Positions 7,433 through 58,786 of a DNA stretch of 64,000 bases are shown piece after piece (position 1 is the first letter of the stretch; every line of letters begins with the position of its first letter). Below the pieces are notes generated by a model. The model was not told the origin of the DNA. It was given only the letters and a program-made list of their open reading frames with translations, and did not search any database. A program made the position numbers and the translations under genes. This DNA is from Pseudomonas helmanticensis (GTDB taxonomy: Bacteria; Pseudomonadota; Gammaproteobacteria; Pseudomonadales; Pseudomonadaceae), in contig NZ_FXUY01000001.1 of NCBI RefSeq assembly GCF_900182985.1, forward strand, positions 4,351,501-4,415,500. The letters run 5' to 3'.

Positions 7433-7453
7433 TGCTAACCTGATAGGTGTTAC

Positions 7454-37896: not shown

Positions 37897-37911
37897 CGTT
37901 ATATCGTAACG
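37897..37911. promoter_or_regulatory. Candidate Zur-type box upstream of the SPFH/P-type ATPase operon
   Basis: CGTTATA-T-CGTAACG resembles the Zur-type pattern TGTTATA-N-TATAACA seen at 54685 and 56395, with two arm mismatches relative to self-symmetry. A second perfect palindrome, ATATCGT-A-ACGATAT (37901-37915), overlaps it. It lies 33 bases before the first gene. Confidence 0.5.
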
Positions 37912-37944
37912 ATATGAACAGCGAGCCAATGATGTTGGGGTGAT

Positions 37945-39903
37945 ATGCAAGTCGATCTGGAGGTTGATGGCACGCAAGTGACCGGACTGCCGCGCTTTCA
38001 ACAGGCGGCCACGCAGGGCAGACGATTGCGGCGTTGGGCGATCGGCTTGGGTGCATTGGCGGGTGCGGGCTGGGTGCTGGCGTTTTTTGTCGGGTTATTC
38101 GCACCGCAATCACTGTGGTTGCCGCTTTTGGTCAATCAGAGCGCAGCATTGCTGGTGTTGGTCGCAGGCCTGCAATCGGCTTGGTGGGTGACGCGCTGGC
38201 GCGCAGGGGTGATGAATCCTCAGGCGTTAACCCCGCTGGTGGTTGACGGGCCTCCCGCAGCCGATGGCTGGTATGAGCGCCTGCTCGATCGCCTTAGTCA
38301 GCGTGGCCTGCATCTGCTCGGGCAGATTGGTGCAGCGACGTTATGGTTGGGCGGGTGGGCGTTGCTGGTGCTACTTGGCATCGAGCAGGCGTGGAATCTG
38401 GCATTGCCGGCCGCCGCTGTCGGACTGTCCGCTACGGTGGGCGCGACGCTGGCGTTGCTGTTGGCGTTCGGTCTGTTGGTGCTGGAGCGGCAACTGGCCC
38501 AGGAAAATCCTGCGCAATGGCCAGAAGCAGGTTCGTTGGCACAATTGACGCGTGTCTCGATCATCAGTCTGGTGTTGGGTGCGGTGTGTTTGTTGTTTGC
38601 CGGCGAAAACTCCGTGTGGCCGGTTCGCGTTGCTGTGCTGATGGGTATTTTGCCGGGATTGGTCGCGATCGAGCTGCTATTGCGTGCCGTTCTTTCGGTT
38701 TTTAGCCCGCATCGCGAACAGCTCGAACCGCCGCTGCTGGCGCGCAGTTTTTTTGCCGACATGTTGCGTTGGCCGCCGCAGCCGCTACTCGCGTTGCAGC
38801 ACGAATTGCACAACCGTTTCGGCATCGATCTGCGGCAGATCTGGGCTTTCAGTTACATGCGTCGTGCCTTTCTACCGGTGCTGGCGCTGGTCGCGGTGGT
38901 TGGCTGGTTGCTCACCGGTATTCATGAAATCCCGCTGCAAGGCCGTGGCATCTACGAGCGTTTCGGCAAACCTGTGGAGGTCTTCGGTCCGGGCTTACAT
39001 AGCGGTTTACCGTGGCCTCTTGGGCGGGTGCTGAGCGTCGAAAACGGTGTAGTGCATGAGCTGGCAACCAGCGTCGGTGAAAACCCGACGCCTCTGCAAG
39101 CCGATCCCGCTGAGGGGCCGGCGCCGATGACGGCCAATCGGTTGTGGGACGCTAGCCACGTCAATGATAAATCCCAGGTCATCGCCAGCAGTCGGGGCGA
39201 GCAGCAGAGCTTTCAGATCGTCAACATGGACGTGCGGTTCGTCTATCGCATTGGTCTGAGCGATCAGGCAGCGCTGGCCGCGACCTACAACAGCGCCGAT
39301 GTTCCGACGCTGATTCGCAGCACCGCCAGCCGGATTCTGGTGCACGATTTTGCCTCGCGCACACTGGACGGTTTGCTTGGAGCGGACAGGGTAGGGCTGG
39401 CCGATGAAATCGGTCGCGCGGTGCAGGATGATCTGCAAAAGCTCGACAGCGGAGTGGAAATTCTTGCCACGGTGGTCGAAGCCATTCATCCACCGGCCGG
39501 CGCCGCCAATGCCTACCACAGTGTGCAAGCGGCGCAGATTGGCGCGCAGGCGTTGATCTCGCGGGAGCGCGGCGCCGCCGCTGAAGCGAGTAATCAGGCG
39601 CAACTGCAGGCCAGCCTTGCGCGCGATCAGGCCAGCGCCAATGCGCGTGAAATCAACGCAGCGGCGCAGGCTGCGGACCTGAAATTCGCTGCCGAACAAA
39701 AAGCCTATGCCAGTGCCGGTCAGGCATTTGTGCTGGAGCAATACCTCGGTCAGCTCAGCCAAGGTCTGAGTAAAGCCAAATTGCTGATACTCGACCACCG
39801 CCTCGGCGGCAGCAACGCGCCGACCATCGACCTGCGTACGTTCACGCTGCCGGCTGACCCGACGCCCGCGCGCACCACCGCTCAACCAGGAGTTAGCCAT
39901 TGA
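37945..39903 (+). CDS. Polytopic HflK-like SPFH (band 7) domain protein
   Basis: This 652-residue protein is much longer than ordinary HflK (about 400). It has about six membrane helices in the N-terminal half (residues 31-53, 58-82, 127-145, 151-180, 201-220 and 227-251) and a further one at 309-326, directly before the SPFH domain (GRGIYERFGKPVEVFGPGLHSGLPWPLG onward). A long Ala/Gln-rich coiled coil at about 535-610 is typical of HflK/C. It is the first gene of a four-gene unit with two more SPFH proteins and a metal P-type ATPase. A probable role is a membrane scaffold around the transporter; HflK/C proper form a cage around FtsH. Start ATG 37945 follows TTGGGG. Confidence 0.82.
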   Translation: MQVDLEVDGTQVTGLPRFQQAATQGRRLRRWAIGLGALAGAGWVLAFFVGLFAPQSLWLPLLVNQSAALLVLVAGLQSAWWVTRWRAGVMNPQALTPLVVDGPPAADGWYERLLDRLSQRGLHLLGQIGAATLWLGGWALLVLLGIEQAWNLALPAAAVGLSATVGATLALLLAFGLLVLERQLAQENPAQWPEAGSLAQLTRVSIISLVLGAVCLLFAGENSVWPVRVAVLMGILPGLVAIELLLRAVLSVFSPHREQLEPPLLARSFFADMLRWPPQPLLALQHELHNRFGIDLRQIWAFSYMRRAFLPVLALVAVVGWLLTGIHEIPLQGRGIYERFGKPVEVFGPGLHSGLPWPLGRVLSVENGVVHELATSVGENPTPLQADPAEGPAPMTANRLWDASHVNDKSQVIASSRGEQQSFQIVNMDVRFVYRIGLSDQAALAATYNSADVPTLIRSTASRILVHDFASRTLDGLLGADRVGLADEIGRAVQDDLQKLDSGVEILATVVEAIHPPAGAANAYHSVQAAQIGAQALISRERGAAAEASNQAQLQASLARDQASANAREINAAAQAADLKFAAEQKAYASAGQAFVLEQYLGQLSQGLSKAKLLILDHRLGGSNAPTIDLRTFTLPADPTPARTTAQPGVSH

Positions 39904-40940
39904 GCCAGTCGCATACTCACGAACCGCATGATCACAGCGGCCACGATCATGGTCGCGGCGGGCATCACCATCATCATGGTCATCATCACCACGGCGCGCC
40001 GGAAGAGGCGGGGCCGTTCCCGTGGCGACGCATGGGCTGGGCGGCGTTGCTGGTGGTATTTGCCATTGCTGCGGCGAGCCTGGTGCAAGTGCGCTCCGGC
40101 GAGGCCACGGTCATCACCCGTTTTGGTAACCCGTCGCGAGTGTTGCTCGAACCGGGTTTGAGCTGGCGCTGGCCGGCGCCGTTCGAGGCTGCGATCCCGG
40201 TCGATCTGCGTCTGCGCACCACCTCCAGCGGCTTGCAGGATGTCGGTACGCGTGACGGTTTGCGCATCATTGTGCAGGCGTATGTGGCTTGGCAGGTGCA
40301 GGGCGATCCGGACAATGTGCAGCGCTTCATGCGCGCGGTGCAGAATCAGCCTGACGAAGCGGCACGACAGATTCGCACCTTCGTCGGCTCGGCGCTGGAA
40401 ACCACCGCGAGCAGTTTTGATCTGGCGAGTCTGGTCAATACTGACGCCAGTCAGGTGCGCATTGGCGATTTCGAAGCGCAATTGCGTCAGCAGATTGATC
40501 AGCAGTTGCTCGCCACTTACGGCGTGCGCGTGGTGCAGATTGGTATCGAACGTTTAACCTTGCCGTCGGTGACGCTGACCGCGACGGTCGATCGGATGCG
40601 TGCCGAGCGCGAAACAATTGCCACGGAACGTACGGCGATCGGCAAGCGAGAAGCGGCGCAGATCCGTTCTGCCGCCGAACGCGATGCGCGAATTGTGCAA
40701 GCCGATGCGACGGTGAAAGCCGCCGATATCGAAGCGCAATCTCGCGTCGAAGCGGCGCAGATCTACGGTCGTGCTTACGCCAGTTCGCCACAGCTCTACA
40801 ACTTGCTGCGCTCGCTGGATACGCTCGGCACCATCGTCACGCCCGACACCAAACTGATTCTGCGTACGGATGCCGCACCATTCCGCGTGCTGGTCGATGG
40901 CCCGCCAACGCTCGACAGCAAAAGCGGATCGCAGCCATGA
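39900..40940 (+). CDS. HflK-like SPFH protein with histidine-rich N-terminus
   Basis: This 346-residue protein begins with a tail carrying 15 histidines in the first 31 residues (HTHEPHDHSGHDHGRGG, then runs of five and four His). This is followed by one membrane helix at about 45-63 and an SPFH domain from about 66 (ATVITRFGNPSRVLLEPGLSWRWPAP). An Ala/Arg/Glu-rich coiled coil runs at about 225-280. The His-rich tail suggests zinc or copper binding and ties the protein to the downstream metal ATPase. The start is TTG 39900, overlapping the previous stop as TTGA, with AGGAG 8-12 bases upstream. Confidence 0.83.
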   Translation: MSQSHTHEPHDHSGHDHGRGGHHHHHGHHHHGAPEEAGPFPWRRMGWAALLVVFAIAAASLVQVRSGEATVITRFGNPSRVLLEPGLSWRWPAPFEAAIPVDLRLRTTSSGLQDVGTRDGLRIIVQAYVAWQVQGDPDNVQRFMRAVQNQPDEAARQIRTFVGSALETTASSFDLASLVNTDASQVRIGDFEAQLRQQIDQQLLATYGVRVVQIGIERLTLPSVTLTATVDRMRAERETIATERTAIGKREAAQIRSAAERDARIVQADATVKAADIEAQSRVEAAQIYGRAYASSPQLYNLLRSLDTLGTIVTPDTKLILRTDAAPFRVLVDGPPTLDSKSGSQP

Positions 40941-41986
40941 GTGAAGAAGTTCCACGTGGAACACATTCGCTCAATAGCCCATGGATTCAAGCGGGACGTT
41001 TGGCGTTTTTTGCCTTGTACGCGGTGACGGTACTGGCCGCATTGGCTTGGGCGTTCTCCAATGTGCGGCAGATCGACCCGCAGAATCGCGCGGTGGTTTT
41101 GCACTTTGGCGCGCTGGATCGCATTCAGAATGCCGGTCTGTTGTTGGCGTGGCCCCAGCCATTCGAGCAAGTGGTTTTGTTGCCAGCGGCGGATCGGGTC
41201 ATCGAGCGCCGTGTGGAAAACCTGCTGCGCACGGATGAGGCGCTCAAGGCTGATCGGGTCGCCTCGTTCGCGACACCCTTGAGCGATGCATTGGCCGGCT
41301 CTGGTTATTTATTGACCGGTGACGCCGGTGTGGTGCAACTGGATGTCCGCGTGTTTTACAAAGTCACCGACCCGTATGATTTTGTCCTGCAAGGAGAACA
41401 TGTCTTGCCGGCACTCGATCGTCTGGTGACACGCAGTGCTGTGGTACTGACAGCCGCGCGGGATCTGGACACCATTCTGGTCGCCCGACCGGAACTGATC
41501 GGTGCCGATAATCAGGCTGCCGAGCGTCGTGAAAAACTCCGTGGTGATCTGGTGCAAGGCATCAACCAACGTTTGGCGAACTTGAAGGCGAGCGGCCAGG
41601 GCATCGGCATTGAAGTAGCGCGAGTCGATGTGCAATCGAGTTTGCCGGACCCAGCGGTCAGCGCTTTCAACGCGGTCTTGACCGCCAGTCAGCAAGCCGA
41701 CAAAGCCGTGGCCAACGCACGCACTGACGCCGAGAAACTCACTCAAACCGCCAACGAACTAGCTGACCGAACGTTGCAGGTCGCCCATGCACAGGCCGGC
41801 GAACGCCTGGCGAAAGCTTCTGCCGACACCGCCACCGTATCGAGTCTGGCCAGCGCCACCGACCCGCAAATGCTCCTGCGTCTGTACCGCGAGCGCATGC
41901 CGAAGATTCTCGGTCAGTCCGGATCGGTGACCACGGTCGACCCGAAAGACGATTCCCGCCTGATCATTCAGGGAGCCAGTAAATGA
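40937..41986 (+). CDS. HflC-like SPFH domain protein
   Basis: This 349-residue protein has a single membrane helix at about residues 19-40 and an SPFH domain beginning VRQIDPQNRAVVLHFGALDRIQNAGLLLAWPQPFEQV. A C-terminal coiled coil follows (about 250-300, Ala/Lys/Thr-rich). It overlaps both neighbours by four bases (ATGA at each end), so stoichiometric synthesis with the second SPFH protein and the ATPase is likely. A parS site is embedded in codons 4-9. Confidence 0.82.
   Translation: MSEEVPRGTHSLNSPWIQAGRLAFFALYAVTVLAALAWAFSNVRQIDPQNRAVVLHFGALDRIQNAGLLLAWPQPFEQVVLLPAADRVIERRVENLLRTDEALKADRVASFATPLSDALAGSGYLLTGDAGVVQLDVRVFYKVTDPYDFVLQGEHVLPALDRLVTRSAVVLTAARDLDTILVARPELIGADNQAAERREKLRGDLVQGINQRLANLKASGQGIGIEVARVDVQSSLPDPAVSAFNAVLTASQQADKAVANARTDAEKLTQTANELADRTLQVAHAQAGERLAKASADTATVSSLASATDPQMLLRLYRERMPKILGQSGSVTTVDPKDDSRLIIQGASK
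40948..40963. other. parS partition site 1
   Basis: AGTTCCACGTGGAACA contains the perfect 14-bp palindrome GTTCCACGTGGAAC and matches the Pseudomonas ParB-binding consensus (TGTTCCACGTGGAACA) at 15 of 16 positions. It lies inside the third SPFH gene. ParB encoded at 2053 is the expected ligand. Confidence 0.88.
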
Positions 41987-43890
41987 GCGCGACCACTGCT
42001 GCACCGAGCCTGTTGTCCTCGGCCGAACAACGCCGTGCGGCGCGTCAATTGACCTTGGCCATGCTCGCACTGGGTCTGCTGAGCCTCGGCTTGATTTGGC
42101 GCTGGATGATCCCGGAACAAACCGGCGTCAGTCAGTTACTGCTGGGTTTTGCCTCTTTATTGGTGGCTGTCCCGGTAATGCGTTCGGCGTGGTACAGCCT
42201 GCGTTACCCGAGTCTGCACGGGATTACCGATCAGTTGATCGCCTTGGCAATGCTTGGGGCGTGGGCGACCGGCGATCTGCTGACTGCGGCGTTGCTGCCG
42301 ATCATCATGATCTTTGGCCATGTGCTGGAAGAGCGCAGCGTGATTGGTTCGCAGGAAGCGATTCATGCCCTCGCCCAACTGACCCGCAGCCACGCGCGTA
42401 AGGTTCAGGCGGATGGTTCGATCATCGAAGTGGATAATGGCACGCTGAAATCCGGCGACAGGGTTGAGGTGCGAGCCGGAGATCGGGTGCCGGCGGACGG
42501 TCGGGTACTGTCCGGACAGGCCAGCCTCGATACGGCCTCGATTACCGGTGAATCGGTGCCGGTGGAAGCGGGCGTCGGCATGACAGTGTTCGGTGGTGCA
42601 ATCAACCTCGATGGTCTGCTGCGCATCGAAGTGACCCGCACGGGCGATGAATCGACACTGGGCAAAGTCATTGCCCTGATGCAAAACGCCGAACGTTCGA
42701 AGCCGCCAATTACCCGTTTGCTCGAGCGTTATGCCGGCAGTTACATGGTGTTGGTGTTGCTGCTCGCGGCAGTGACCTGGTTTATCACCAATGATGCGCA
42801 AGCGATGCTTGCCGTGTTGGTCGCGGCCTGTCCGTGCGCATTGGTGTTGTCCGCCCCGGCGACGGCGATTGCCGGTGTGGCGGTGGCGGCGCGGCACGGC
42901 ATTCTTATCCGCAGTTCGGCATTCCTCGAAGAACTGGCCGACCTCACCTCGCTGGTGGTCGACAAGACCGGCACTTTGACATATGGCACCTTGCGTTTGC
43001 AGTCGATCAACAGTCCGTGCGCCGATTCATCGACGGTCATGGCGTTGGCGGCCAGTCTCGGCGCGGCGAGCAGTCACCCGGTCAGCCGGGCTCTGGCGGG
43101 GCTGGTCAGTCAGGACGCGTGTTGGTCACTCAAGGATATTCATGAGCGCCAAGGCCTGGGTGTGGTCGCCATGACCGAGCAGGGCGAGGCGGCATTGGGC
43201 CGACCGGAGTTGTTTGGCCACCTGGGCATCGCCACGACAGCCGTGCCTGAGCACGACGGTCCGATTGCCGGCCTGGCGCTGAACGGTGAATTCCTCGCCT
43301 GGCTGTTGCTCGCCGACAGCGTCAAACCGGAAGCCCGCTTTGCCCTCAATGAGTTGCGTGAACTGGGGCTCGGACGGCAACTGTTGCTGACCGGTGATCG
43401 TCAGAGCGTGGCCCAGGCCCTGGCGCGAGATGTCGGCTTGCACGAGGTTGAAGCGCAAGCCTTGCCCGAGGACAAACTCAATCGCGTGCTCAAGGAAATC
43501 GACAATGGTTTCCGGCCAATGGTGGTCGGCGATGGCATCAACGATTCGCTGGCACTCAAGGCCGGTGTGGTCGGCGTGGCGATGGGCGTTGGCGGTGCCG
43601 ACATCGCACTGGCCTCGGCCGACATCGTGCTGATCGGCAGTGACCTGCGCCGACTCGGCACCTGTGTGCGGCTGAGTCGTCAATGCCGGCGAACCTTGCA
43701 GGTCAACGTGATCATCGGTCTGGGCTGGACGCTGGTGATCGTGGTGTTCGCTGCATTCGGCTGGCTCGGCGCTGCCGGGGCGATGATTGCTGCGTTGCTG
43801 CATAACCTCAGCACCTTGCTGGTACTCGGCAACGCCGGACGTTTGCTGCGTTTTCAGGAGCCGCTGTTGAAGCTCAAGGAAGAAACCTGA
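41983..43890 (+). CDS. Heavy-metal-translocating P-type ATPase, HmtA-like
   Basis: This 635-residue P1B-type ATPase has the membrane metal motif CPC at 283-285, the actuator TGES at 188-191, the phosphorylation site DKTGTLT with Asp327, the P1B His-Pro at 365-366 and the hinge GDGIND at 516-521. The last helix pair has LLHNLSTLLVLGNAGRLL. There is no N-terminal CxxC metal-binding domain, which is unusual for exporters of Cu or Zn. The arrangement with HflK/C-like genes matches P. aeruginosa PA2435-PA2439, where HmtA imports copper and zinc. Import of zinc, perhaps copper, is therefore inferred. It is coupled to the SPFH genes by an ATGA overlap. Confidence 0.86.
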   Translation: MSATTAAPSLLSSAEQRRAARQLTLAMLALGLLSLGLIWRWMIPEQTGVSQLLLGFASLLVAVPVMRSAWYSLRYPSLHGITDQLIALAMLGAWATGDLLTAALLPIIMIFGHVLEERSVIGSQEAIHALAQLTRSHARKVQADGSIIEVDNGTLKSGDRVEVRAGDRVPADGRVLSGQASLDTASITGESVPVEAGVGMTVFGGAINLDGLLRIEVTRTGDESTLGKVIALMQNAERSKPPITRLLERYAGSYMVLVLLLAAVTWFITNDAQAMLAVLVAACPCALVLSAPATAIAGVAVAARHGILIRSSAFLEELADLTSLVVDKTGTLTYGTLRLQSINSPCADSSTVMALAASLGAASSHPVSRALAGLVSQDACWSLKDIHERQGLGVVAMTEQGEAALGRPELFGHLGIATTAVPEHDGPIAGLALNGEFLAWLLLADSVKPEARFALNELRELGLGRQLLLTGDRQSVAQALARDVGLHEVEAQALPEDKLNRVLKEIDNGFRPMVVGDGINDSLALKAGVVGVAMGVGGADIALASADIVLIGSDLRRLGTCVRLSRQCRRTLQVNVIIGLGWTLVIVVFAAFGWLGAAGAMIAALLHNLSTLLVLGNAGRLLRFQEPLLKLKEET

Positions 43891-44001: not shown

Positions 44002-44253
44002 ATGACTATCAAGACCGCTGCTGCTGGTGCCGCTCTCGCTTTGGCCGCCGCCACGATGTTTGCCGGTGTCGCGACCAACGCAATGGCTGCCGATGCCAAT
44101 GTTCACTGCTACGGCGTGAATGCCTGCAAAGGCCAGAACGACTGCAAGACCAAAGACCACGCCTGCAAAGGCATGGGTTCGTGCAAAGGCCAGGGCTTCA
44201 AGGCGATGACTCAGACGGCTTGCGACAAAGCAGGTGGCAAGGTCGGCGAATAA
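44002..44253 (+). CDS. Bufferin-type exported Cys-rich metallophore precursor (BufA-like)
   Basis: This 83-residue precursor has a signal peptide, cleaved near ANAMAA-DAN (residue 30). The mature part of about 53 residues has six cysteines (36, 42, 48, 55, 61, 74) in repeated C-K-G or N-D-C-K settings: [36 protein letters not shown]. Directly following DUF692 (MNIO) and DUF2063 genes identify it as a bufferin-type RiPP, in which cysteines are oxidised to thiooxazole-type groups and the product sequesters copper in the periplasm. The repeat pattern looks closer to the BufA2-like than the BufA1-like form. It has a GAGGATAAG ribosome site. Confidence 0.82.
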
Positions 44254-44262
44254 CTGACCGGC

Positions 44263-44301
44263 AAGTGCCGCCGCAGTGGTTAACGCCACTGCGGCCACTT
44301 T
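44263..44301 (+). terminator. Intercistronic hairpin (attenuator) after the bufferin peptide gene
   Basis: CCGCAGTGG (44271-44279), loop TTAACG, CCACTGCGG (44286-44294) is a perfect 9-bp stem. Outer AAGTG/CCACTT adds imperfect pairing, and TTTTATC follows. It begins ten bases after the peptide stop and ends 17 before the MNIO gene start. Partial termination here would give more peptide than enzyme. Confidence 0.6.
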
Positions 44302-44317
44302 TATCAGGAGTCCGCTC

Positions 44318-45163
44318 ATGCCTGCTGTTCATCCTTTCCTTGGTTACGGCCTCGGCTTGCGTAGTGCCTATTACCAGCAGATCCTCGAACAGTCGCCGCA
44401 CGTCGACTGGTTTGAAGTGGTCTCGGAAAATTTCATGGTGCAGGGCGGCAAGGCCCTGTATTACCTCGACGCCATCGCCGAGCGCTATCCGTTGGTGATG
44501 CACGGAGTGTCCTTGTCCATCGGTGGGCCGCATGCCCTCGATCCGGACTATCTCAAACAACTCAAGCAACTTGCTGACCGGGTCAAACCGGCATGGATCT
44601 CCGACCACTTGTGCTGGAGCCGTGGCAACGCGCATCAGTTGCATGATCTGCTGCCACTGCCGTACACCGCCGAAAGCCTTGTGTACATCGCCGGGCGAGT
44701 CGCGCAAGTGCAGGACGTGTTACAGCGGCCACTGGTGCTGGAGAACGTCTCCAGTTATGTGCGCGCCGCGTCGGATGATTTCACCGAGTGGGAATTTCTT
44801 GCCGCTCTGAGCCGGGAGAGCGGCTGCGAGTTGCTGCTGGACGTGAACAACGTCTACGTCAGTTCACGCAATCACGGTTTCGATCCGTGGGCCTTCATCG
44901 AGCATCTGCCTGTCGATAAAGTCCGCCAGTTGCACCTCGCCGGGCACAGCGACTATGGCGACTACGTGATCGACACCCATGACCATCCGGTGAGCGATCC
45001 GGTCTGGGCGCTGTATCGACGCACCTTAGAACACTTCGGCCCGGTGGCCACGTTGCTCGAGCGCGATGATCATTTTCCGCCCTTCGAAGAATTGCTCGAT
45101 GAATTGCACACCGCGCGTGAACTGGGCGACCAGGTCCTGGCCAGGAGGCAACAATGCGCCTGA
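44318..45163 (+). CDS. DUF692 / MNIO multinuclear non-haem iron oxidase (BufB-like)
   Basis: This 281-residue TIM-barrel enzyme is of the multinuclear non-haem iron-dependent oxidase family. Metal-ligand candidates appear in family positions: SENF (Glu37), MHGVSLSIG (His62), SDHLCW (Asp96, His97), LENVSSY (Glu142), DVNNVYVSS (Asp175, Asn177), LHLAGHSDY (His206, His210), HDHPV and LERDDHFPP. It would oxidise cysteines of the adjacent peptide with DUF2063 as partner. ATG 44318 follows CAGGAG. The 3' end overlaps the next gene by ten bases. Confidence 0.9.
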   Translation: MPAVHPFLGYGLGLRSAYYQQILEQSPHVDWFEVVSENFMVQGGKALYYLDAIAERYPLVMHGVSLSIGGPHALDPDYLKQLKQLADRVKPAWISDHLCWSRGNAHQLHDLLPLPYTAESLVYIAGRVAQVQDVLQRPLVLENVSSYVRAASDDFTEWEFLAALSRESGCELLLDVNNVYVSSRNHGFDPWAFIEHLPVDKVRQLHLAGHSDYGDYVIDTHDHPVSDPVWALYRRTLEHFGPVATLLERDDHFPPFEELLDELHTARELGDQVLARRQQCA

Positions 45164-45942
45164 AAGAATGGCAACTGGCGTTCGAAGCGTTTCTGCTCGA
45201 TGACGGTGCCAATGCCAATATGGCGTTGAGTGACAGCCTGATCGGTGGCCCGACACTGGATATCGACACTGGGCTGGCGATCTATCACAACGCCTACAAG
45301 GCGCGGTTGCTGGAAGTGCTGCGTGATGACTTTCCGAGCATCCTGCACTGGATGGGCGATGAAGAATTCGAGCGGCTCGCCACCGCGTACATCCGCGAAA
45401 ACCCTTCAACTCATTACAGCCTGCGCTGGCTGGGTAGAGGCTTCGAAAGTTTTATCCGCGAGCATTTGATCCCGCAGCAGAGTGCCCCCTTGGCCGAATT
45501 GGCAGCGATGGAATGGGCATTCACCCTGGCCTTTGATGCGCCCGCCGGTGAACCGCTGACGATTGCAACAATGGCGACACTCGCCCCTGAAGAGTGGCCC
45601 GAGCTACAAGTCAAACCGAGCCCATCGTTGCAGTGGCAGATGTGCCGCTTCAATAGCCTTTCTCTGTGGCGGTCGCTGAAAGAGCAATCTGAATTTCCTG
45701 GCAGTACCACGCTGGAAATCCCTCAGGTCTGCCTGATCTGGCGTAACAACCTGATCTGCAACTACCGAAGCCTTGAACCTGCGGAAGCCGACGCGCTGAG
45801 TGGCTTGTTGCACGACGGCTGGAAATTCTCCGAACTGTGCGCTGCGCTGGCAGTCATTTATGGTGAGGGCGCACCACTTCAAGCTGTTACCTGGCTGAAA
45901 CAGTGGGTTGAGGAAGGCTTGCTGGAGCGTCTGCAACGATAG
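45154..45942 (+). CDS. DUF2063 RiPP-recognition partner protein (BufC-like)
   Basis: This 262-residue protein is encoded directly after the MNIO gene with a 10-base overlap and an AGGAGG ribosome site. Family pattern: LKEWQLAFEAFLLDD at the start, then GLAIYHNAYKARLLEVLRDDFPSILHWMGDEEFERLATAYI. DUF2063 proteins bind the precursor peptide and present it to the MNIO. The C-terminal half (about 160-262) ends with GWKFSELCAALAVIYGEGAPLQAVTWLKQWVEEGLL, resembling winged-helix folds. Confidence 0.86.
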   Translation: MRLKEWQLAFEAFLLDDGANANMALSDSLIGGPTLDIDTGLAIYHNAYKARLLEVLRDDFPSILHWMGDEEFERLATAYIRENPSTHYSLRWLGRGFESFIREHLIPQQSAPLAELAAMEWAFTLAFDAPAGEPLTIATMATLAPEEWPELQVKPSPSLQWQMCRFNSLSLWRSLKEQSEFPGSTTLEIPQVCLIWRNNLICNYRSLEPAEADALSGLLHDGWKFSELCAALAVIYGEGAPLQAVTWLKQWVEEGLLERLQR

Positions 45943-49447: not shown

Positions 49448-50779
49448 TCAGCGCATGAATCGTAGCGCCAGACCCCGACATCCCTCGTTCACCCGTCCCT
49501 CGCGCCAGGCAATCTGCCCCGAGACAATCGTCGTACTCACTTGATGGCGAAAGCTGCGCCCGGCAAACGGCGTCCATCCGCACTGCGACAGAATCGGTTG
49601 CCGATTTACTGCCAGTGCCTGCGGCTTAACCAATACCAGATCCGCCCAATACCCCTCTCGTAAATACCCACGATCCGGAATCGCGAACAGATCCGCGACG
49701 CGATGGCTGGTCTTCGCCACCAGCGTGGATATCGGCAGAACGCCATCCGCGACCAGTTCCATCAATGCCGGAAACGCATGCTGCACCAATGGCAATCCCG
49801 AAGGAGCCCGCGCGTAAGGCTGCTGTTTTTCTGCCCACGTGTGCGGCGCGTGATCGCTGCCGATCACGTCGAGCCGATTGCTGTTCACTGCTTCGCGTAA
49901 CGCATCGCGATCGGCCTGGGTCTTGATCGCCGGGTTGCACTTGATCAGGTTGCCGAGGCTTGGGTAATCCTGATCATCGAACAACAAATGATGCAGACAG
50001 ACTTCAGCGGTGATGCGTTTCTGCGCTAACAGTTTGTCCTCGAACAACGCCAGTTCACGCGCCGTGGTCAGGTGCAAAACATGCAGACGTGTACCGTGAC
50101 GTTTCGCCAGTTCCACCGCCAGTGAAGAGGATCGATAACACGCCTCGGCATTGCGAATAAGGGGGTGAGCGGCGGGCGGGATTTGCTCCCCGAACAGTTC
50201 ACGCAAGTTGGCCGCATTGGCGTCGATACTTGGCGTGTGTTCGCAGTGGGCCAACAGGATCGTCGGCACCTCGGCGAACAGTCGCTCGAGGATCAGCGGA
50301 TCATCGACCAGCATGTTGCCGGTGGACGCGCCCATGAACACTTTCACTCCTGCCACTTCAGACGGATTGAGTGCGGCGACCGTGTCGAGATTGTCCCGGC
50401 TCACGCCAAAGTGAAAACCATAATTGGCCACCGAGGTGAGCGCCGCCCGACGCTTTTTATCTGCCAGCGCTTCGAGGGTGAGGGTGGCCGGATTGGTGTT
50501 GGGCATGTCCATGAAGCTGGTGATGCCGCCGGCGACAGCCGCGCGAGACTCGGTATAGAGACTGCCCTTGGTCGGCGCACCGGGTTCACGGAAGTGCACC
50601 TGATCATCGATCATTCCCGGTAGCAGCCACTGGCCGTTCGCGTCGATTTCTACCGTGGCGTTTTCGTCGTCGATGCTGCGCGCAATCTTGACGATGCGGC
50701 CGTTGCCGACCAACAGATCAGCATCAAACTCACGTCCCTCGTTAACCAGTCTGGCGTTGCGAATCAGCACGCTGCTCAT
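49448..50779 (-). CDS. pyrQ: Dihydroorotase, zinc-island paralogue
   Basis: This 443-residue amidohydrolase of pyrimidine synthesis has metal ligands in the family motifs DDQVHFREPG near residue 60, the carboxylated lysine in VAGVKVFMG near residue 145, HCEHTPS, VLHLTTA, and the catalytic GSDHAPHTWAEK near residue 300. It is the last gene of the folE2 operon. A spare dihydroorotase placed under zinc control is known in P. aeruginosa (PA5541, pyrQ), next to the same gamma-carbonic-anhydrase gene. Three bases separate it from that gene. Confidence 0.9.
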   Translation of the reverse strand: MSSVLIRNARLVNEGREFDADLLVGNGRIVKIARSIDDENATVEIDANGQWLLPGMIDDQVHFREPGAPTKGSLYTESRAAVAGGITSFMDMPNTNPATLTLEALADKKRRAALTSVANYGFHFGVSRDNLDTVAALNPSEVAGVKVFMGASTGNMLVDDPLILERLFAEVPTILLAHCEHTPSIDANAANLRELFGEQIPPAAHPLIRNAEACYRSSSLAVELAKRHGTRLHVLHLTTARELALFEDKLLAQKRITAEVCLHHLLFDDQDYPSLGNLIKCNPAIKTQADRDALREAVNSNRLDVIGSDHAPHTWAEKQQPYARAPSGLPLVQHAFPALMELVADGVLPISTLVAKTSHRVADLFAIPDRGYLREGYWADLVLVKPQALAVNRQPILSQCGWTPFAGRSFRHQVSTTIVSGQIAWREGRVNEGCRGLALRFMR

Positions 50780-50782
50780 GGT

Positions 50783-51343
50783 TCAGAACTCGTTCTGCAA
50801 GGCTTTGTAGCCGCGCACCAGATCGACGTTGGTGCGCGCCACATCCTCGGAAAACTCCGAGGCGCTGACGCTCACTGGCGGAAATAACGAGAGGTCGGTA
50901 TTCGGGCCGATGCGCGTGGTGGAGGGCACGTAGAAGGCGTCGGGCAAATCCCGCCCATCGACCACCGAGTTGTGCCGCACCACGCAGCCGTTGCCGACCA
51001 CGCAGTTAAACAACACGCTGTTGAAACCGATGAATACGCGGTCGCCAACCATGCACGGGCCATGCACGATCGAGCGGTGGGCGATGGAACTGAATTCGCC
51101 GATGGTCACCGCCGCGCCGGATTTCGAGTGGATCACCACGCCGTCCTGGATGTTCGAATTGGCGCCGATGGTGATCGGCTCCATCTCACCCGAGGCGTCC
51201 ACTTCGTCGGCACGGATCACCGCATAAGGACCAACGAAGACGTTCTCGCCGATCACCACTTTGCCGCAGATGATTGCCGTTTTATCGACGTAGGCCGACT
51301 CGGCGATCTGCGGTAAATCACCTGAAGGATTTTTGCGGATCAT
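50783..51343 (-). CDS. Gamma-carbonic-anhydrase-like hexapeptide-repeat protein
   Basis: This 186-residue left-handed beta-helix protein has hexapeptide repeats such as GKVVIGENVFVGPYAVIRAD, IGANSNIQDGVVIHS and VGDRVFIGFNSVLFNCVVGNGCVVRHNSVV. Histidines at ligand positions are visible (VIHS, IAHRSIVHG). Whether it has carbonic anhydrase activity, binds another metal, or serves only when zinc is scarce cannot be told. It overlaps the preceding substrate-binding-protein gene by four bases (ATGA). Confidence 0.85.
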   Translation of the reverse strand: MIRKNPSGDLPQIAESAYVDKTAIICGKVVIGENVFVGPYAVIRADEVDASGEMEPITIGANSNIQDGVVIHSKSGAAVTIGEFSSIAHRSIVHGPCMVGDRVFIGFNSVLFNCVVGNGCVVRHNSVVDGRDLPDAFYVPSTTRIGPNTDLSLFPPVSVSASEFSEDVARTNVDLVRGYKALQNEF

Positions 51344-52215
51344 GGTCGGCTCAGCGCGTCGTAAAGGGTGTTGAGGTTGTATTCGAACAGGCCGGTGAAA
51401 GTGCTGGCCGGGCCGCTCGCAGCGAGGGCATCGGAGTACAACGTGCCACCGATGTGCGCGCCGCTTTCGTCGGCGATCTGCTTGAGCAAGCGCGCATCCT
51501 TGATGTTTTCCATGAACACCGCTTTGACCTTGGCCTGACGGATCTGGGTAATCAGCGCGGCAACTTCGGCGGCCGACGGCTCGCGCTCAGTGGACAAACC
51601 CTGTGGCGCCATAAAGTCGATGCCGTAGGCCTGACCGAGATAACCGAAAGCATCGTGGCTGGTAACGATCTTGCGATTGCCCGGTGGCAGTGAACCGAGT
51701 TTGGTTTTGGCTTCGGTGAGCAGGGCGTAGATCTGCTTCAAATAGGTTTTGCTGTTGCGTTCGTAGTCGGTTTTGTTCGCCGGGTCGGCAGCGATCAACG
51801 CCTTGGTGATGTTGGCGATGTACAACTCGGTGTTCGCCAGATTGTGCCAGGCGTGCGGATCGGGAACGGTTTCGCCGTCTTCATCCAGCGAGCGCGGAAT
51901 CACGCCGTGACTGGCACTGATGACGGTCGCTTTGGTCTCGGTGCTGGTCACCAGTCGATCCAGCCACGGCTCGAAACCGAGGCCGTTCTTGATGATCAAC
52001 TTGGCGTTGAGTAGCGCTTTGGCGTCATCCGGTGTCGGCTCGTAGGTGTGTGCATCGGCGTCGGGGCCGACCATGTTGGTGATCTGGATATGCTCGCCAC
52101 CGACCTGATGGACCATGTCGGCGAGGATGCTGAAACTGGTCACCACCGGCAATTTCTCCGCTGCCGATAACGACATCGACAGCAGCAAGCTGAACAACAC
52201 GAGTAGAGCGCGCAT
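51340..52215 (-). CDS. Zinc-type ABC transporter, periplasmic substrate-binding protein (ZnuA-like)
   Basis: This 291-residue cluster A-I metal-binding protein has a signal peptide (MRALLVLFSLLLSMSLSA). Histidine ligands are placed as in ZnuA/PsaA proteins: DAHTYEPTPDD near residue 65, DPHAWHNLANTE near 130 and SHDAFGYLGQAYG near 195, with a late Asp/Glu. It lacks the long His-rich loop of many ZnuA proteins, so manganese or iron cannot be excluded. The start at 52215 is 11 bases after the permease stop. An upstream ATG at 52230 would overlap it as ATGA and add five residues. Confidence 0.87.
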   Translation of the reverse strand: MRALLVLFSLLLSMSLSAAEKLPVVTSFSILADMVHQVGGEHIQITNMVGPDADAHTYEPTPDDAKALLNAKLIIKNGLGFEPWLDRLVTSTETKATVISASHGVIPRSLDEDGETVPDPHAWHNLANTELYIANITKALIAADPANKTDYERNSKTYLKQIYALLTEAKTKLGSLPPGNRKIVTSHDAFGYLGQAYGIDFMAPQGLSTEREPSAAEVAALITQIRQAKVKAVFMENIKDARLLKQIADESGAHIGGTLYSDALAASGPASTFTGLFEYNLNTLYDALSRP

Positions 52216-52226
52216 CGGGAGACACC

Positions 52227-53093
52227 TCATTGGGATGTGAGCAAAGGCGGGCGGCGTAGCAGACCGTGAACCGGCCCGAACACCACCGACAACAGGTAAC
52301 CGACGCCTGCGACCAGCACGATGGCCGGGCCGCTTGGCAGCGAGTAATAGAACGACAGCAACAAACCGAACCACACCGAGAGGCAGCCGATCACGGCGGC
52401 GGTGGCAATCAGGATCGGCAGACGGCGACTCCAGAATCGCGACGCTGCGGCGGGGAGCATCATCAGTCCGACCACCATCAGCGCACCGATGGCCTGAAAG
52501 CCGATCACCAGGTTGAGCACCACCAGGGTCAGGAATACGCCGTGGGCGAGTGGTCCGAGACGACTGACGGTTCTCAGGAACAGCGGGTCGAGGGTGTCGA
52601 GCAACAGCGGTTGGTAGATCAACGCCATGGCGATCAGGCTGAATCCAGAGACCCACAACATGCCGGTGAGGGTCGGGCCGTCGACCGCCAAAGCCGAGCC
52701 GAACAACAGGTGAAGCAAATCGAGGCGTTTGCCGGCGACGCCGAGAATCAGCACGCCACTGGCGAGCGAGATTGGATAAATCGCGGCGAGGCTGGCGTCC
52801 TCGCGCAGGCCGGTACGACGGGTAATCCAGGCCGCGAGGCCGGCCATGCTCAGACCCGCGCCCAAACCTCCCAGTGTCAGTGCGGGCAAACTCAGCCCAG
52901 CAAACCAGAAGCCTAAAGCCGCGCCGGGGAGGATGCCGTGGGCCACCGCGTCACCGATCAGACTCATCCGTCGCAGGATCAAAAACACACCGAGTGGTGC
53001 TGTGCTGCAGGCCAATACCAGACCGCCGAGCAAGGCCCTGCGCATGAACACGAACTCATTGAACGGTTGCCATAAGTGGGCGACGGTGAGCAT
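52227..53093 (-). CDS. Zinc-type ABC transporter, permease (ZnuB-like)
   Basis: This 288-residue ABC-3 family permease has eight to nine membrane helices. It begins with FNEFVFMRRALLGGLVLACSTAPLGVFLILRRMSLIGDAVAHGILPGAALGF, the family signature with the coupling region. VVGLMMLPAAASRFWSRRLPILIATAAVIG near residue 205 is also characteristic. It starts one base into the ATPase gene stop (TGATG) and forms a complete importer with its neighbours. Confidence 0.92.
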   Translation of the reverse strand: MLTVAHLWQPFNEFVFMRRALLGGLVLACSTAPLGVFLILRRMSLIGDAVAHGILPGAALGFWFAGLSLPALTLGGLGAGLSMAGLAAWITRRTGLREDASLAAIYPISLASGVLILGVAGKRLDLLHLLFGSALAVDGPTLTGMLWVSGFSLIAMALIYQPLLLDTLDPLFLRTVSRLGPLAHGVFLTLVVLNLVIGFQAIGALMVVGLMMLPAAASRFWSRRLPILIATAAVIGCLSVWFGLLLSFYYSLPSGPAIVLVAGVGYLLSVVFGPVHGLLRRPPLLTSQ

Positions 53094-53761
53094 CAGGCCA
53101 CCTGTGTATGAGGTGTTTGCTGGATCAGCTCAGCGCTGGTGCCGAATACGCACTGGCTGTTTTTGATCAGCAAAGTCTGCGGGATGTGCTGGCGTACGGC
53201 GGCGAGGTCATGGCAAACCACGACCAGCGTTCGACCTTCGCCATGCCAGGCATGCAGGTGTTGCCAAAGTAGCTGTTGACCCAGTTCATCGAGCGCGGCG
53301 TGGGGTTCGTCGAGGAGTAGGACGGGGGCGTCGGTCAGGCTCAATCGGGCGAGTAGGGCGCGCTGTAATTCACCGCCAGAGAGGGCCATGAGTGGACGCT
53401 TTTCCAGTCCGCTCAGGTGCCAGTTTTCCAGTGCATCTTTGAGGCGTTGCGCGCGCAGCTGGGTTGAAAGTCGGCGGCCCCAAAATCCTGCCGCGATCAG
53501 TTCTTCCAGGCTGATGGGGAACTGACGGTCGAGGTGCTGTTGTTGGGGGAGGAAGGACAGTCCGCTTTGACGTGGAACACTGAGGGCGACGTTACCCGCC
53601 AAAGGCTTCTGCAATCCGGCAATGACTTTTAGCAGGCTGCTCTTGCCACAGCCGTTGGCACCGATGATCGCTGTCAGGCTGCCGTTATCAAGTTCTAGAT
53701 TCAGCGGTGCGGTCAGCGGTTGGCCGGGAGCGCCCCAACTCAGGGATTGGCAGCGGATCAT
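53093..53761 (-). CDS. Zinc-type ABC transporter, ATP-binding protein (ZnuC-like)
   Basis: This 222-residue ABC ATPase has Walker A GANGCGKSS near residue 35, the Q-loop FLPQQQHLDRQFPIS, the signature LSGGELQRALLARL near residue 128, Walker B VLLLDEPHAALDE, and the switch histidine in VVCHDLAAV. The wording matches the metal-importing ZnuC/MntB group. The start overlaps the folE2 stop by four bases (ATGA), so folE2 and the transporter are translated together. Confidence 0.92.
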   Translation of the reverse strand: MIRCQSLSWGAPGQPLTAPLNLELDNGSLTAIIGANGCGKSSLLKVIAGLQKPLAGNVALSVPRQSGLSFLPQQQHLDRQFPISLEELIAAGFWGRRLSTQLRAQRLKDALENWHLSGLEKRPLMALSGGELQRALLARLSLTDAPVLLLDEPHAALDELGQQLLWQHLHAWHGEGRTLVVVCHDLAAVRQHIPQTLLIKNSQCVFGTSAELIQQTPHTQVA

Positions 53762-54654
53762 GCTTGCTCACGCTGCCAGTGGCTTTCGGCGACGGCGTCA
53801 TGGGCATGCAAACTTTCAGCGTGAATCACGCGGAGGTGGAACTGGTTAACGCCAGGTGTTCGGCGAAGAGCGAGATTCAGTCGGCGCGCGGCGTCTTCAC
53901 AAAACATCAGGTTTTGGCCGTTGGCGAGGGCAAAGGCTTGTTCGTCTGCACGTTTTACTGCGGTTTGCACGGCGGTACCGAGGGCGGTTTCGGCGTCGTT
54001 GATGATGACACTAAGGGGCAATTCATCAACGAACTCGTCGAGGTGAAGATGCAGTTGTGCCGTGCTGCGTTGGCTGTGCGGTGTGGCGACGATGCCTTGG
54101 CTGGAGCCGAGCCATGCCAAAACGTCTGCGTGCTGGAGGGCTTTGTTGGCGAAGTCGTCGATGAATTGTTGCTGGATCAACTGTCGTGCTAACGCTGCGG
54201 AGCAGGGGCATGTTGAGGAGTAGGGCACTTCAATTTTAAGTTCCACGTGGAACATCTTGTTCTTCAGGCTTGCTGAAATCGTTGCCGGATAGGACTTCCA
54301 ACCGGCCAATGGACTGATCAGCGCGGGACGTTTCAACAGCAAATCGGTGTGGATATTCAGATAGGCCCGGTTGGACAACCCTTCGTGGCTTTGCAGAAAA
54401 CGCGTTAGAACCTGGTGCATCAGGGCAGGAGAAAGGCTCTCTTGTTCGAGCGCTTCCAGAGCCAGATAGAGCCGCGACATATGAATCCCACGAGCCTCGC
54501 CGTCATCAAGACTCACCCCGGCATCCGCCTTCGCACTCAAGCGTTGACCTTCCAACAAGATTGGTAAAGCGATGCCGCGCATCCCCACCCATTCGAGTGG
54601 CAAGGCTTGGCGAGCCGACTGCGCGGCGATATCCGGAAGTGTCAGCGAATTCAT
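53758..54654 (-). CDS. folE2: Zinc-independent GTP cyclohydrolase FolE2 (type IB)
   Basis: This 298-residue enzyme makes dihydroneopterin triphosphate for folate synthesis. The type IB family works with metals other than zinc and is commonly expressed under zinc limitation. Landmarks are LPLEWVGMRGIALPI near the start, KIEVPYSSTCPCSAALARQLI with the catalytic cysteine region near residue 140, and a C-terminal FCEDAARRLNLALRRTPGVNQFHLRVIHAESLHAHDA. It is the first gene of a six-gene operon. The Zur-type box at 54685 begins 31 bases upstream of its start. A parS site lies inside it. Confidence 0.93.
   Translation of the reverse strand: MNSLTLPDIAAQSARQALPLEWVGMRGIALPILLEGQRLSAKADAGVSLDDGEARGIHMSRLYLALEALEQESLSPALMHQVLTRFLQSHEGLSNRAYLNIHTDLLLKRPALISPLAGWKSYPATISASLKNKMFHVELKIEVPYSSTCPCSAALARQLIQQQFIDDFANKALQHADVLAWLGSSQGIVATPHSQRSTAQLHLHLDEFVDELPLSVIINDAETALGTAVQTAVKRADEQAFALANGQNLMFCEDAARRLNLALRRTPGVNQFHLRVIHAESLHAHDAVAESHWQREQA
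54239..54254. other. parS partition site 2
   Basis: AGTTCCACGTGGAACA, identical to the site at 40948, inside folE2 (coding on the opposite strand). It sits 13.3 kb from the first site and 0.9 kb from the third. Confidence 0.88.
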
Positions 54655-54684
54655 GTTCGGAACCATCGTGTTGATTAAATTAGA

Positions 54685-54699
54685 TGTTACATTATAACA
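54685..54699. promoter_or_regulatory. Zur-type operator between folE2 and the amidase gene
   Basis: TGTTACA-T-TATAACA is a 15-bp palindrome with a single asymmetric base pair, matching the zinc uptake regulator pattern TGTTATA-N-TATAACA. On the minus strand it contains TATAAT, a perfect -10 hexamer, so bound repressor would cover the folE2 promoter. The amidase gene on the other side starts 40 bases away. Confidence 0.82.
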
Positions 54700-54738
54700 A
54701 TACAAATCACGACGCCTTTTTCATGAACAGGCTTTCAT

Positions 54739-55941
54739 ATGCACAGACGCCATCTGCTTAATCTGATTCTGGCCAGCGCGGCCTTCGCCCTTCCTTTCAG
54801 TGCTTCGGCCACGCAGATTCGCAGCGCGCGACTCTGGCGGTCTGATGAGAAGCTGCGATTGGTCTTCGATTTAAGTGGGCCGGTGCGCTACAAAACCTTC
54901 GCTCTCAGTGCTCCAGATCGACTGATTATTGATGTGGCGGGTGCAGATTTGAGCGGTGACTTCAGCCAATTGGCGTTGAGTGGAACGGTGATCCGTTCGA
55001 TTCGATCCGGACTTTTTGGTCGAGGTGATACGCGTATCGTTCTCGATCTGAACGGCCCGGTACTGCTGAACAGCTTTCTTTTAGCGCCTCAAGATGGCCA
55101 GAGTCATCGTCTGGTGATGGATTTGGTCAGTGCGAAAACGGCGTCAATGGTGCCAATGGTTCCACGTGAAACACCCAAAATTAGCACGCATCCGAAACGC
55201 GACATCATCGTAGTAGTGGATCCAGGGCATGGTGGAAAGGATCCCGGAGCAGTCGGCGCCAAGGGTGAGCGTGAAAAAGATGTGGTGCTGTCCATCGCTC
55301 AATTACTCGCCAAACGCCTGAAAAAAGAGAACGGCTTTGATGTGAAGCTGGTGCGTAACGACGATTTTTTCGTTCCATTACGCAAGCGCGTAGAGATCGC
55401 CCGTCAGCACAAAGCCGACATGTTTATCTCGGTGCATGCCGATGCGGCACCACGGCTGACGGCTTCTGGCGCCTCGGTGTATTGCCTGTCTGAAGGTGGT
55501 GCAACCTCGGCGACGGCTCGTTTCATGGCGCAGCGAGAGAATGGTGCGGATCTGCTCGGCGCCACCAGTCTGCTTAATCTGAAGGATAAGGATCCGATGC
55601 TCGCCGGGGTGATTCTCGACATGTCGATGAATGCGACGATTGCCGCCAGTTTGCAGCTCGGCAGCACGGTGCTGGGCAGCCTTGCCGGCATCACCACGCT
55701 GCATCAGAAGCGCGTGGAACAGGCGGGTTTTGCAGTGCTGAAATCGCCAGATGTGCCCTCGATCCTGGTGGAAACAGGCTTCATTTCCAATGCGCGCGAC
55801 AGTCAGCGGCTAGTGACGGCGCGACATCAACAAGCGGTAGCGAACGGTTTATTCGAAGGTTTACAGCGCTACTTTGAAAAGAATCCGCCGATCGACAGCT
55901 ACCTTGCCTGGCAGCAAGAACAGCGCAAAGCGCAGGTCTAG
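54739..55941 (+). CDS. N-acetylmuramoyl-L-alanine amidase (AmiC-type)
   Basis: This 400-residue periplasmic cell-wall amidase cuts the bond between MurNAc and the peptide. The signal MHRRHLLNLILASAAFALPFSASA has twin arginines, compatible with Tat export as in AmiA/AmiC. An AMIN domain (about 26-125) targets it to the septum. The Amidase_3 domain (about 150-390) contains the zinc ligands of VVVDPGHGGKDPGAVG (His) and downstream Glu and His, for example FISVHADAAP, plus PSILVETGFISNARD. It is divergent from folE2 across a Zur-type box. The P. aeruginosa counterpart is at the same place (PA5538). Its stop shares CTAG with the convergent small gene. Confidence 0.93.
   Translation: MHRRHLLNLILASAAFALPFSASATQIRSARLWRSDEKLRLVFDLSGPVRYKTFALSAPDRLIIDVAGADLSGDFSQLALSGTVIRSIRSGLFGRGDTRIVLDLNGPVLLNSFLLAPQDGQSHRLVMDLVSAKTASMVPMVPRETPKISTHPKRDIIVVVDPGHGGKDPGAVGAKGEREKDVVLSIAQLLAKRLKKENGFDVKLVRNDDFFVPLRKRVEIARQHKADMFISVHADAAPRLTASGASVYCLSEGGATSATARFMAQRENGADLLGATSLLNLKDKDPMLAGVILDMSMNATIAASLQLGSTVLGSLAGITTLHQKRVEQAGFAVLKSPDVPSILVETGFISNARDSQRLVTARHQQAVANGLFEGLQRYFEKNPPIDSYLAWQQEQRKAQV
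55158..55173. other. parS partition site 3
   Basis: GGTTCCACGTGAAACA contains GTTCCACGTGAAAC, which differs from the two upstream sites at one arm base. It is inside the amidase gene, between its two domains. Confidence 0.75.
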
Positions 55942-56315: not shown

Positions 56316-56394
56316 GGGGTTTTCCAAGTATTGCAGAAAGTCAGCTTCCTGCTCTTTGTCGCTCAGGACAAGAGTGGGGCTGGTCTATTTATAT

Positions 56395-56409
56395 TGTTAT
56401 ACTATAACA
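56395..56409. promoter_or_regulatory. Zur-type operator upstream of zigA
   Basis: TGTTATA-C-TATAACA is a perfect 15-bp palindrome, with A/T-rich flanks (ATTTAT on the left, TAAATAG on the right). TATACT inside it is a good plus-strand -10. It is 128 bases from zigA and 80 from the small exported-protein gene. Confidence 0.85.
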
Positions 56410-56536
56410 TAAATAGAAACTGAGCCTAAGCGGGCCGATTTCAAGCGTTTATCTTCAGCGAACCCCTCGCATGAAGCACCAAAACGCCATGCGCTGACAA
56501 AAGCGTCAATCGGCTGCGTTCCATGAGGATTATCCA

Positions 56537-58386: not shown

Positions 58387-58400
58387 CGCCTATAGACGTC

Positions 58401-58757: not shown

Positions 58758-58786
58758 CTTTGAATCTCCCAAGAAAGCTCCTGGCC

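Follow-up and report, generated by a model that had tools for sequence, protein, structure and literature searches.

Three SPFH proteins and an HmtA-type P1B ATPase encoded as one unit in Pseudomonas helmanticensis and other bacteria

Why should three genes for SPFH proteins be joined end to end to a gene for a metal-transporting P-type ATPase? The question is raised by a stretch of 64,000 nucleotides of Pseudomonas helmanticensis (contig NZ_FXUY01000001.1, positions 4,351,501 to 4,415,500), hereafter the window. Four adjacent genes on its + strand, at 37945-43890, encode three SPFH proteins (SPFH1, SPFH2 and SPFH3, together the trio) and one P1B ATPase. We report here, as a new observation, that these four genes behave as one unit: they were present in the same order and on one strand in all 100 loci that were read. 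By its neighbourhood and relatives, the ATPase is assigned to the HmtA type of Pseudomonas aeruginosa. We give an even chance to the interpretation that the unit is a single device for metal uptake under zinc scarcity, in which an SPFH assembly would surround an inward-pumping ATPase and cytosolic His tails would serve as metal acceptor. The features on which the argument draws are as follows.

37945..39903, + strand: SPFH1, 652 amino acids; seven predicted membrane helices; SPFH domain at residues 332-544, predicted to be periplasmic
39900..40940, + strand: SPFH2, 346 amino acids, TTG start; His-rich tail, one membrane helix, SPFH domain at residues 63-246
40937..41986, + strand: SPFH3, 349 amino acids; one membrane helix; SPFH domain at residues 45-265
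41983..43890, + strand: HmtA-type P1B ATPase, 635 amino acids, without N-terminal metal-binding domain
37898..37911, + strand: Zur-type operator GTTATATCGTAACG, fitting the published Zur consensus GWWAYWNNNTWHCR; 33 bases to SPFH1
39900..39903, + strand: TTGA overlap of SPFH1 and SPFH2, read in the sequence
40937..40940, + strand: ATGA overlap of SPFH2 and SPFH3, read in the sequence
41983..41986, + strand: ATGA overlap of SPFH3 and the ATPase, read in the sequence
39900..39992, + strand: His-rich tail, SPFH2 residues 1-31, 15 His
42829..42837, + strand: CPC motif of M4 of the ATPase (Cys283-Pro284-Cys285), found in 88/88 ATPase sequences
43801..43815, + strand: M6 motif of the ATPase (His607-Asn608-Leu-Ser-Thr611), replacing the HEGxT of P1B-4 or the Asp of P1B-2 ATPases

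Linkage of the four genes across genomes and plasmids

The 100 loci comprised the window, 80 genome loci (the top-ranking ones among 455 confirmed places; 78 of the 80 are in Pseudomonas), seven of 10 plasmid records, six of 18 other genomes of the family and six loci found by the ATPase. Since 87 loci had been picked for SPFH2 and six for all three searched genes, only the six ATPase-found loci and the surveys described below are independent evidence. The labels 'enteric', 'Rhizobium-type' (L178) and 'P. aeruginosa-like' used for some loci were assigned by us from what these loci contain and from their named relatives among plasmids and proteins.

Within the family, SPFH1 (E at most 1e-20, 50-100% identity) was found in 19 of 148 genomes, and the same 19 contained SPFH2 at 70-100% and the ATPase at 74-100% identity. 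An SPFH2 match at 27-31% was present in 41 other genomes, and the next ATPases listed did not exceed 39%. According to the printed coordinates, SPFH1, SPFH2 and the ATPase were clustered on one strand in all 19 genomes. Pairwise distances among the four proteins correlated at 0.91-0.98 (19 loci), as would be expected if the four proteins travel together. Similarly, when 72,556 plasmid records were searched with SPFH2, SPFH3, the ATPase and SPFH1, each query returned the same 10 records (seven Rhizobium, one Burkholderia, one Paraburkholderia and one Klebsiella). We had set the E limits separately for each query, at 1e-30 for SPFH2, 1e-25 for SPFH3 of the Klebsiella copy, 1e-15 for SPFH1 and 1e-110 for the ATPase, the last being meant to exclude other P1B ATPases.

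Class-wide surveys with SPFH1 and the ATPase (274 genomes each, at most four candidates scored per genome) gave no match beyond the own genome, and E. coli genomes gave no blastn match to the Klebsiella copy. With the ATPase as query, a draw from the order detected 5/244 genomes, all within the family, and a draw from the phylum detected 12/397, three of them outside it; in the families of two of these outside matches, the ATPase occurred in 5/149 and 1/151 genomes. In all six outside-family loci found by the ATPase alone, the trio was present and the gene order was unchanged; SPFH2 was interrupted in one of them. Free separation of the SPFH genes from the ATPase across genomes had been named in an earlier, sequence-only reading of this DNA as one observation that would speak against its proposal of a dedicated SPFH microdomain around the importer; no separation was seen in any survey made, an outcome that favours this proposal. 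Chance association is rejected by the family, plasmid and outside-family surveys, together with the order of the genes in 100/100 loci.

The same reading had described the genes as translationally locked. The 4-base overlap that it noted at every junction is indeed present, and such overlaps are frequent in relatives, a spacing of -4 being observed in 53, 81 and 85 of 87 loci for SPFH1-SPFH2, SPFH2-SPFH3 and SPFH3-ATPase, respectively. However, in the P. aeruginosa-like genus the ATPase begins 43-638 bases past SPFH3 (5/5 loci). Because this junction is open there, tight SPFH3-ATPase coupling is common rather than essential, and the idea that the overlaps prove coupling was dropped.

Several further observations concern individual copies. 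In at least two P. aeruginosa-like loci (L156, 5642-6094; L160, 5339-5866), the interval between SPFH3 and the ATPase holds an additional gene, perhaps PA2436, whose small product begins with a signal-like sequence. Broken frames in SPFH1, SPFH2, SPFH3 or the ATPase were found in copies L079, L100, L118 and L175. On the Paraburkholderia plasmid (L148; 1-3424 and 5786-6235), a zinc ABC transporter and a PCu(A)C copper chaperone lie upstream of the unit, and the Cellvibrio-type loci L064 and L068 have in common, at about 1100-7730 upstream of the unit, what reads as an RND-like pump pair and an amidase-like gene.

The ATPase, the SPFH proteins and the His-rich tails

Pfam detected E1-E2_ATPase and Hydrolase in the ATPase and no HMA domain, in agreement with the sequence-only reading, which had found the N-terminal metal-binding domain missing. 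The protein belongs to the heavy-metal P1B ATPases (TIGR01525, 525.2 bits against a cut-off of 346.25), with DKTGT and CPC in 88/88 sequences. Placement in the HmtA type follows from the neighbouring trio and from an identity of 74-83% with the ATPases of two further genera in the family. Residues D98, T101, H113, C283 and C285 were identical in 88/88 sequences, and T583, H607, N608 and T611 in all 87 that could be read, one being gapped.

We compared these positions with 14 other P1B ATPases picked from the family-genome matches. The set typical of Zn/Cd exporters, Glu101, Lys583 and Asp607, was present in 10/14, that is, in all 10 aligned Zn/Cd-type proteins; the remaining four (Cu-type and one unlike) had Thr, Thr, Ala and Val at position 101. 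Thr101 was dropped as a unique mark because two Cu-type paralogues align Thr there too. The P1B-2 exporters ZntA and CadA share the CPC of M4 with the ATPase, whereas their M2 Glu, M5 Lys and M6 Asp (E202, K693 and D714 are named for SsZntA in an excerpt of PMC8880997) are replaced by Thr101, Thr583 and His607 in all readable sequences. P1B-4 ATPases of the CoaT type are defined in the same excerpt by SPC in M4 and HEGxT in M6; CPC and HNxST or HNxGT were found instead. The top-scoring solved ATPase is a P1B-4 protein, sCoaT (7qbz, 252 bits), which likewise has no classical N-terminal domain and aligns with its M2 Gly-His and M6 His. Its S325 and C327 (SPC), H657 and E658 (HEGxT) and E120 of M2 align to C283, C285, H607, N608 and T101, so that both exit residues, E658 and E120, which the excerpt gives as proposed to act in outward release, are exchanged for Asn608 and Thr101. 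The pump thus has a Cys/His path without the charges of exporters, which fits an odd mode of transport and is no proof of import.

PF01145 (Band_7/SPFH) was detected in SPFH1, SPFH2 and SPFH3 at 69.5, 110.9 and 66.2 bits, respectively, against a Pfam gathering score of 23.6, placing all three in the superfamily. None of them belongs to HflK by the NCBIfam model TIGR01933 (52.3, 39 and 89.8 bits, cut-off 159.4), and SPFH2 does not belong to HflC by TIGR01932 (96.9 bits, cut-off 134.4). The His-tailed protein had earlier been called HflK and the third protein HflC; these names have to be given up, as SPFH2 scored best against HflC and SPFH3 best against HflK, both below the cut-offs. The trio resembles the HflK/HflC cage of FtsH in its SPFH domains, in a predicted topology with the N-terminus inside and the SPFH part in the periplasm, and in sequence matches to the chains of 7vhp and 7wi3. 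It differs in consisting of three paralogues, one with seven predicted helices, in being joined to an ATPase pump, in the low scores just given and in one FtsH-contact Arg, which is His in SPFH1. According to a portion of PMC13220708, R141, E142 and R185 of E. coli HflK are the residues used to break FtsH binding. SPFH1 aligns His371 to R141 and keeps E142 as Glu372, and R185 falls in the unaligned part.

Seven hydropathy peaks in SPFH1 (35-53, 57-75, 128-146, 162-180, 201-219, 235-253 and 308-326) bear out the earlier count of about seven membrane helices. Among 40 sequences, including that of the window, 27 had seven peaks, 12 had six and one had five, some of them having been read from a start set too far downstream. 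Lys and Arg are densest in the N-terminus, the second loop and the sixth loop, a distribution that predicts a cytosolic N-terminus and a periplasmic SPFH domain. Four His residues of this domain, His352, His405, His515 and His525, were invariant in the 40 sequences, at identities down to 35%. At the three positions that can be aligned, E. coli HflK differs; the fourth lies in an unaligned stretch. These His residues are candidates for a periplasmic metal site, and no more than that.

SPFH2 carries 15 His, all between residues 5 and 31 and before its single membrane helix, exactly as many in the first 31 residues as had been noted before. Judging from HflK/HflC topology, this tail should be cytosolic. 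Tails were scored by script at thresholds of at least 6 His for SPFH2 and at least 4 for the ATPase, which placed them on SPFH2 only in 85 of the 100 loci, on both proteins in 12, on the ATPase only in two and on neither in one. The last is L175, whose interrupted SPFH2 bears a tail in the piece before the stop, so that SPFH2 is tailed in 97/100 loci by script and in 98 once this piece is read. Thus, none of the 100 loci is without both tails, a pattern that rests on few independent events. The ATPase tail was absent from the own lineage, from Burkholderia and Cellvibrio-type loci and from four of five enteric chromosomes. Both tails were found in P. aeruginosa-like, Rhizobium-type and Paraburkholderia copies, and a tail on the ATPase alone in one Klebsiella plasmid and one enteric chromosome.

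Such variable placement is what would be expected of a tail that serves the complex rather than one subunit. The pattern is no statistical proof, because L149 and L177, the loci without an SPFH2 tail, have much the same tails and probably belong to a single lineage. In addition, among SPFH2 relatives known as proteins, 101/120 had 6 or more His; the remaining 19 comprised 13 that were shortened or without a countable tail and six with 3-5 His, and a weak or absent pair of tails may occur among these. The proposal that the tail stands in for the missing metal domain or buffers metal on entry gains support from this distribution over relatives; simple replacement of the domain is weakened, since 12/100 loci have both tails.

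Zinc and copper around the unit

The site at 37898-37911 fits the Zur consensus as printed in PMC10393844; taken alone, it does not differ significantly from shuffles (p about 0.11). Recurrence in related genomes is a stronger sign of an operator than such single-stretch scores: GTTATATCGTAAC was found exactly upstream of SPFH1 in 54/79 Pseudomonas stretches, the window included, and GTTATANNGTAAC in 63/79. Stretches scoring at least 10/14 made up 71/96 of those upstream of SPFH1 against 8% of shuffles; these counts are approximate, as starts are partly mis-set and shuffles keep single-base content only, and single stretches were often not significant. Enteric copies scored 11-13 of 14 in 5/5 loci (p 0 to 0.06). 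The window holds 6 consensus matches against 1.4 expected, four of which come from two dyads, at 54685 and 56395, each counted once per strand; a match at 43889 is probably due to chance. The pattern GTTATANNRTAACR alone was not significant in the own genome (5 placements against 3 in the control). Other palindromes were also seen: one like GATACGTAATAACGTATC upstream of SPFH1 in the Rhizobium-type loci L144, L145 and L178, perhaps an operator there, and the perfect palindrome AGCGAACATTTATGTTCGCT about 150 bases before SPFH1 in L174, besides a Zur-type site.

About 6-16 kb from the unit, at 49448-59752, lies a zinc-starvation island that encodes FolE2, a ZnuA-like protein, an ABC ATPase, a hexapeptide protein, an amidohydrolase, an amidase and two cobW genes, which we take to be members of COG0523. 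The two dyad Zur-type sites are located at the start of the FolE2 gene and before one of the cobW genes. Directly past the ATPase, at 44002-45942, is an operon of the bufferin type for a copper-related ribosomally synthesized and post-translationally modified peptide (RiPP), with a BufA2 precursor, an MNIO maturase and a DUF2063 partner. Bufferin precursor and maturase genes were present in 39/80 genome loci and in none of the seven plasmid loci.

The HmtA-type cluster of P. aeruginosa (PA2434-PA2439) and its zinc response are already in print. The cluster is alike in having three SPFH genes, PA2439, PA2438 and PA2437, and HmtA (PA2435). A P. aeruginosa SPFH2 (P0187) is 83% identical to SPFH2 of the window over 86% of the length. 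The ATPase of the P. aeruginosa-like genus has its own His tail and no overlap with SPFH3 (5/5 loci), whereas that of the window has no tail and all junctions overlap. Mutation of znuA is reported to raise the cluster 5.6- to 14.4-fold (PMC4542158), Zur to shift the PA2439 promoter in vitro (PMC8531726), zinc depletion to raise PA2438 and PA2439 proteins (PMC11761036) and N-acetylcysteine, interpreted as a zinc chelator, to induce PA2437-PA2439 (PMC9431628). PMC10393844 states, at variance with PMC8531726 on the PA2439 promoter, that hmtA was the only uptake promoter not bound by Zur. The Zur-type operator in Pseudomonas and enteric copies, the nearby zinc-starvation genes and this published induction point to zinc scarcity as the setting of the unit.

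The trio has also been studied under another name. PaFlo5, PaFlo6 and PaFlo7 of strain PA14 are the same proteins (PA14_33070, 33080 and 33110 correspond to PA2439, PA2438 and PA2437 in a table of PMC9431628), and were described as a three-SPFH operon, probably horizontally acquired (PMC13086221). Joint deletion, reported in 2026, gave about 20% less biofilm and, according to the discussion of that paper, some attenuation in Galleria. Its main text contains neither 'HmtA' nor 'ATPase' and mentions zinc once, about FtsH, and no zinc test of the deletion was found in the portion read. Among open-licence PMC papers, we found none that joins SPFH and HmtA; the single paper that came up for HflK, HflC, SPFH, P-type ATPases and zinc combined is about FtsH.

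A possible uptake device and its alternatives

The uptake device outlined at the beginning would work as follows. At low zinc, Zur would release the operon. The three SPFH proteins would form a mixed ring or vault at the periplasmic face of the inner membrane, as HflK and HflC do, and the seven-helix SPFH1 may anchor this assembly and hold as its client the HmtA-type ATPase rather than FtsH. Zn (and Cu) would be carried into the cell by the ATPase along a Cys/His path free of the charged residues found in zinc exporters. The entering metal may be taken up or buffered by the cytosolic His tails, which SPFH2 bears in the window and the ATPase bears as well in some relatives. Integrity and order of the unit, its conserved residues, the placement of the tails and the match to the operator are seen directly in the sequences. 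The vault, the client relation, the direction of transport in P. helmanticensis and metal binding by the tails are what we infer in this scheme. Inward transport of Zn and Cu by HmtA has been published for P. aeruginosa (Lewinson 2009, told in parts of PMC10393844 and PMC8456098), overexpressed HmtA raising both metals in the cell (as told in PMC10393844).

Several observations weigh against such a device. The same review (PMC10393844) regards import by HmtA as in need of confirmation, and deletion of the PA14 trio was without growth effect in LB (PMC13086221). P. aeruginosa hmtA mRNA stays low and is not repressed by zinc in the data given from PMC8531726, the rise of HmtA protein in zinc depletion has p 0.05-0.12 in those from PMC11761036, and PA2435 goes unmentioned in the main text of PMC9431628, which lists PA2437-PA2439; shared regulation of the pump and the trio may therefore not hold in every case. 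Upstream of the Rhizobium-type, Burkholderia, Paraburkholderia, Klebsiella-plasmid, Cellvibrio, Thalassocella and g234 copies, no Zur-type site reached significance. Finally, copper may matter as much as zinc, because the bufferin operon follows the unit in nearly half of the genome loci.

The main rival, which we regard as somewhat unlikely, is modulation of FtsH, a zinc protease, by the trio, which would then be the form of HflK/HflC used in zinc starvation, with the ATPase merely a co-regulated operon partner. By sequence, the solved relatives of the trio are mainly E. coli HflK and HflC, one of the two alignable FtsH-contact residues (E142) is kept, and the P. aeruginosa trio has been read as FtsH modulators, a guess published in PMC9431628. 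However, the other alignable contact, R141, is His371 in SPFH1, the trio scores well below the NCBI cut-offs for HflK and HflC, and the genome has another adjacent SPFH pair resembling hflK/hflC. A pure modulator, moreover, would need no link to an ATPase that persists through transfer between classes, and the same 10 plasmids hold all four genes.

Quite improbable, in our view, is a trio that protects or assembles the ATPase, acting on its stability or insertion (for instance by shielding it from FtsH) with no direct role in transport, the His tail only buffering metal. Linkage and gene order fit this explanation, as does one published model in which the HflK/C cage shields membrane proteins from FtsH (told in part of PMC13220708), yet by itself it leaves the invariant His residues of the SPFH1 domain unexplained. 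Very improbable is export of Zn or Cu to the periplasm as by other P1B ATPases, loading periplasmic proteins or relieving copper stress: the nearest solved relatives are named metal exporters or transporters, NCBI models put the ATPase nearest the Cd family, the bufferin neighbours suggest copper and hmtA mRNA was unresponsive to zinc in one study, but HmtA overexpression raised cell Zn and Cu, PA2438 and PA2439 proteins (and HmtA, not significantly) went up in zinc depletion, no readable sequence has the M2 Glu, M5 Lys or M6 Asp of exporters, the Zur-type operator occurs in two bacterial families and bufferins are missing from the other 41/80 genome loci and the seven plasmid loci.

The uptake device can also be put in a stronger form, which is speculative and in our judgement unlikely: that the unit is a distinct, transferable kind of transporter, in which a P-type ATPase imports metal only as the client of a vault of three SPFH paralogues. 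Here, the vault would close a periplasmic chamber in which His 352/405/515/525 of SPFH1 present metal to a pump without the exporters' path charges, interchangeable cytosolic His tails would receive it, and the vault itself would make inward pumping possible.

Metal import by P1B ATPases is unsettled, and HmtA is a claimed case for which the review cited above wants confirmation. If the SPFH trio is indeed a constant companion of the pump, the working form of HmtA may escape assays of the protein by itself. In addition, bacterial SPFH proteins gain a candidate client other than FtsH.

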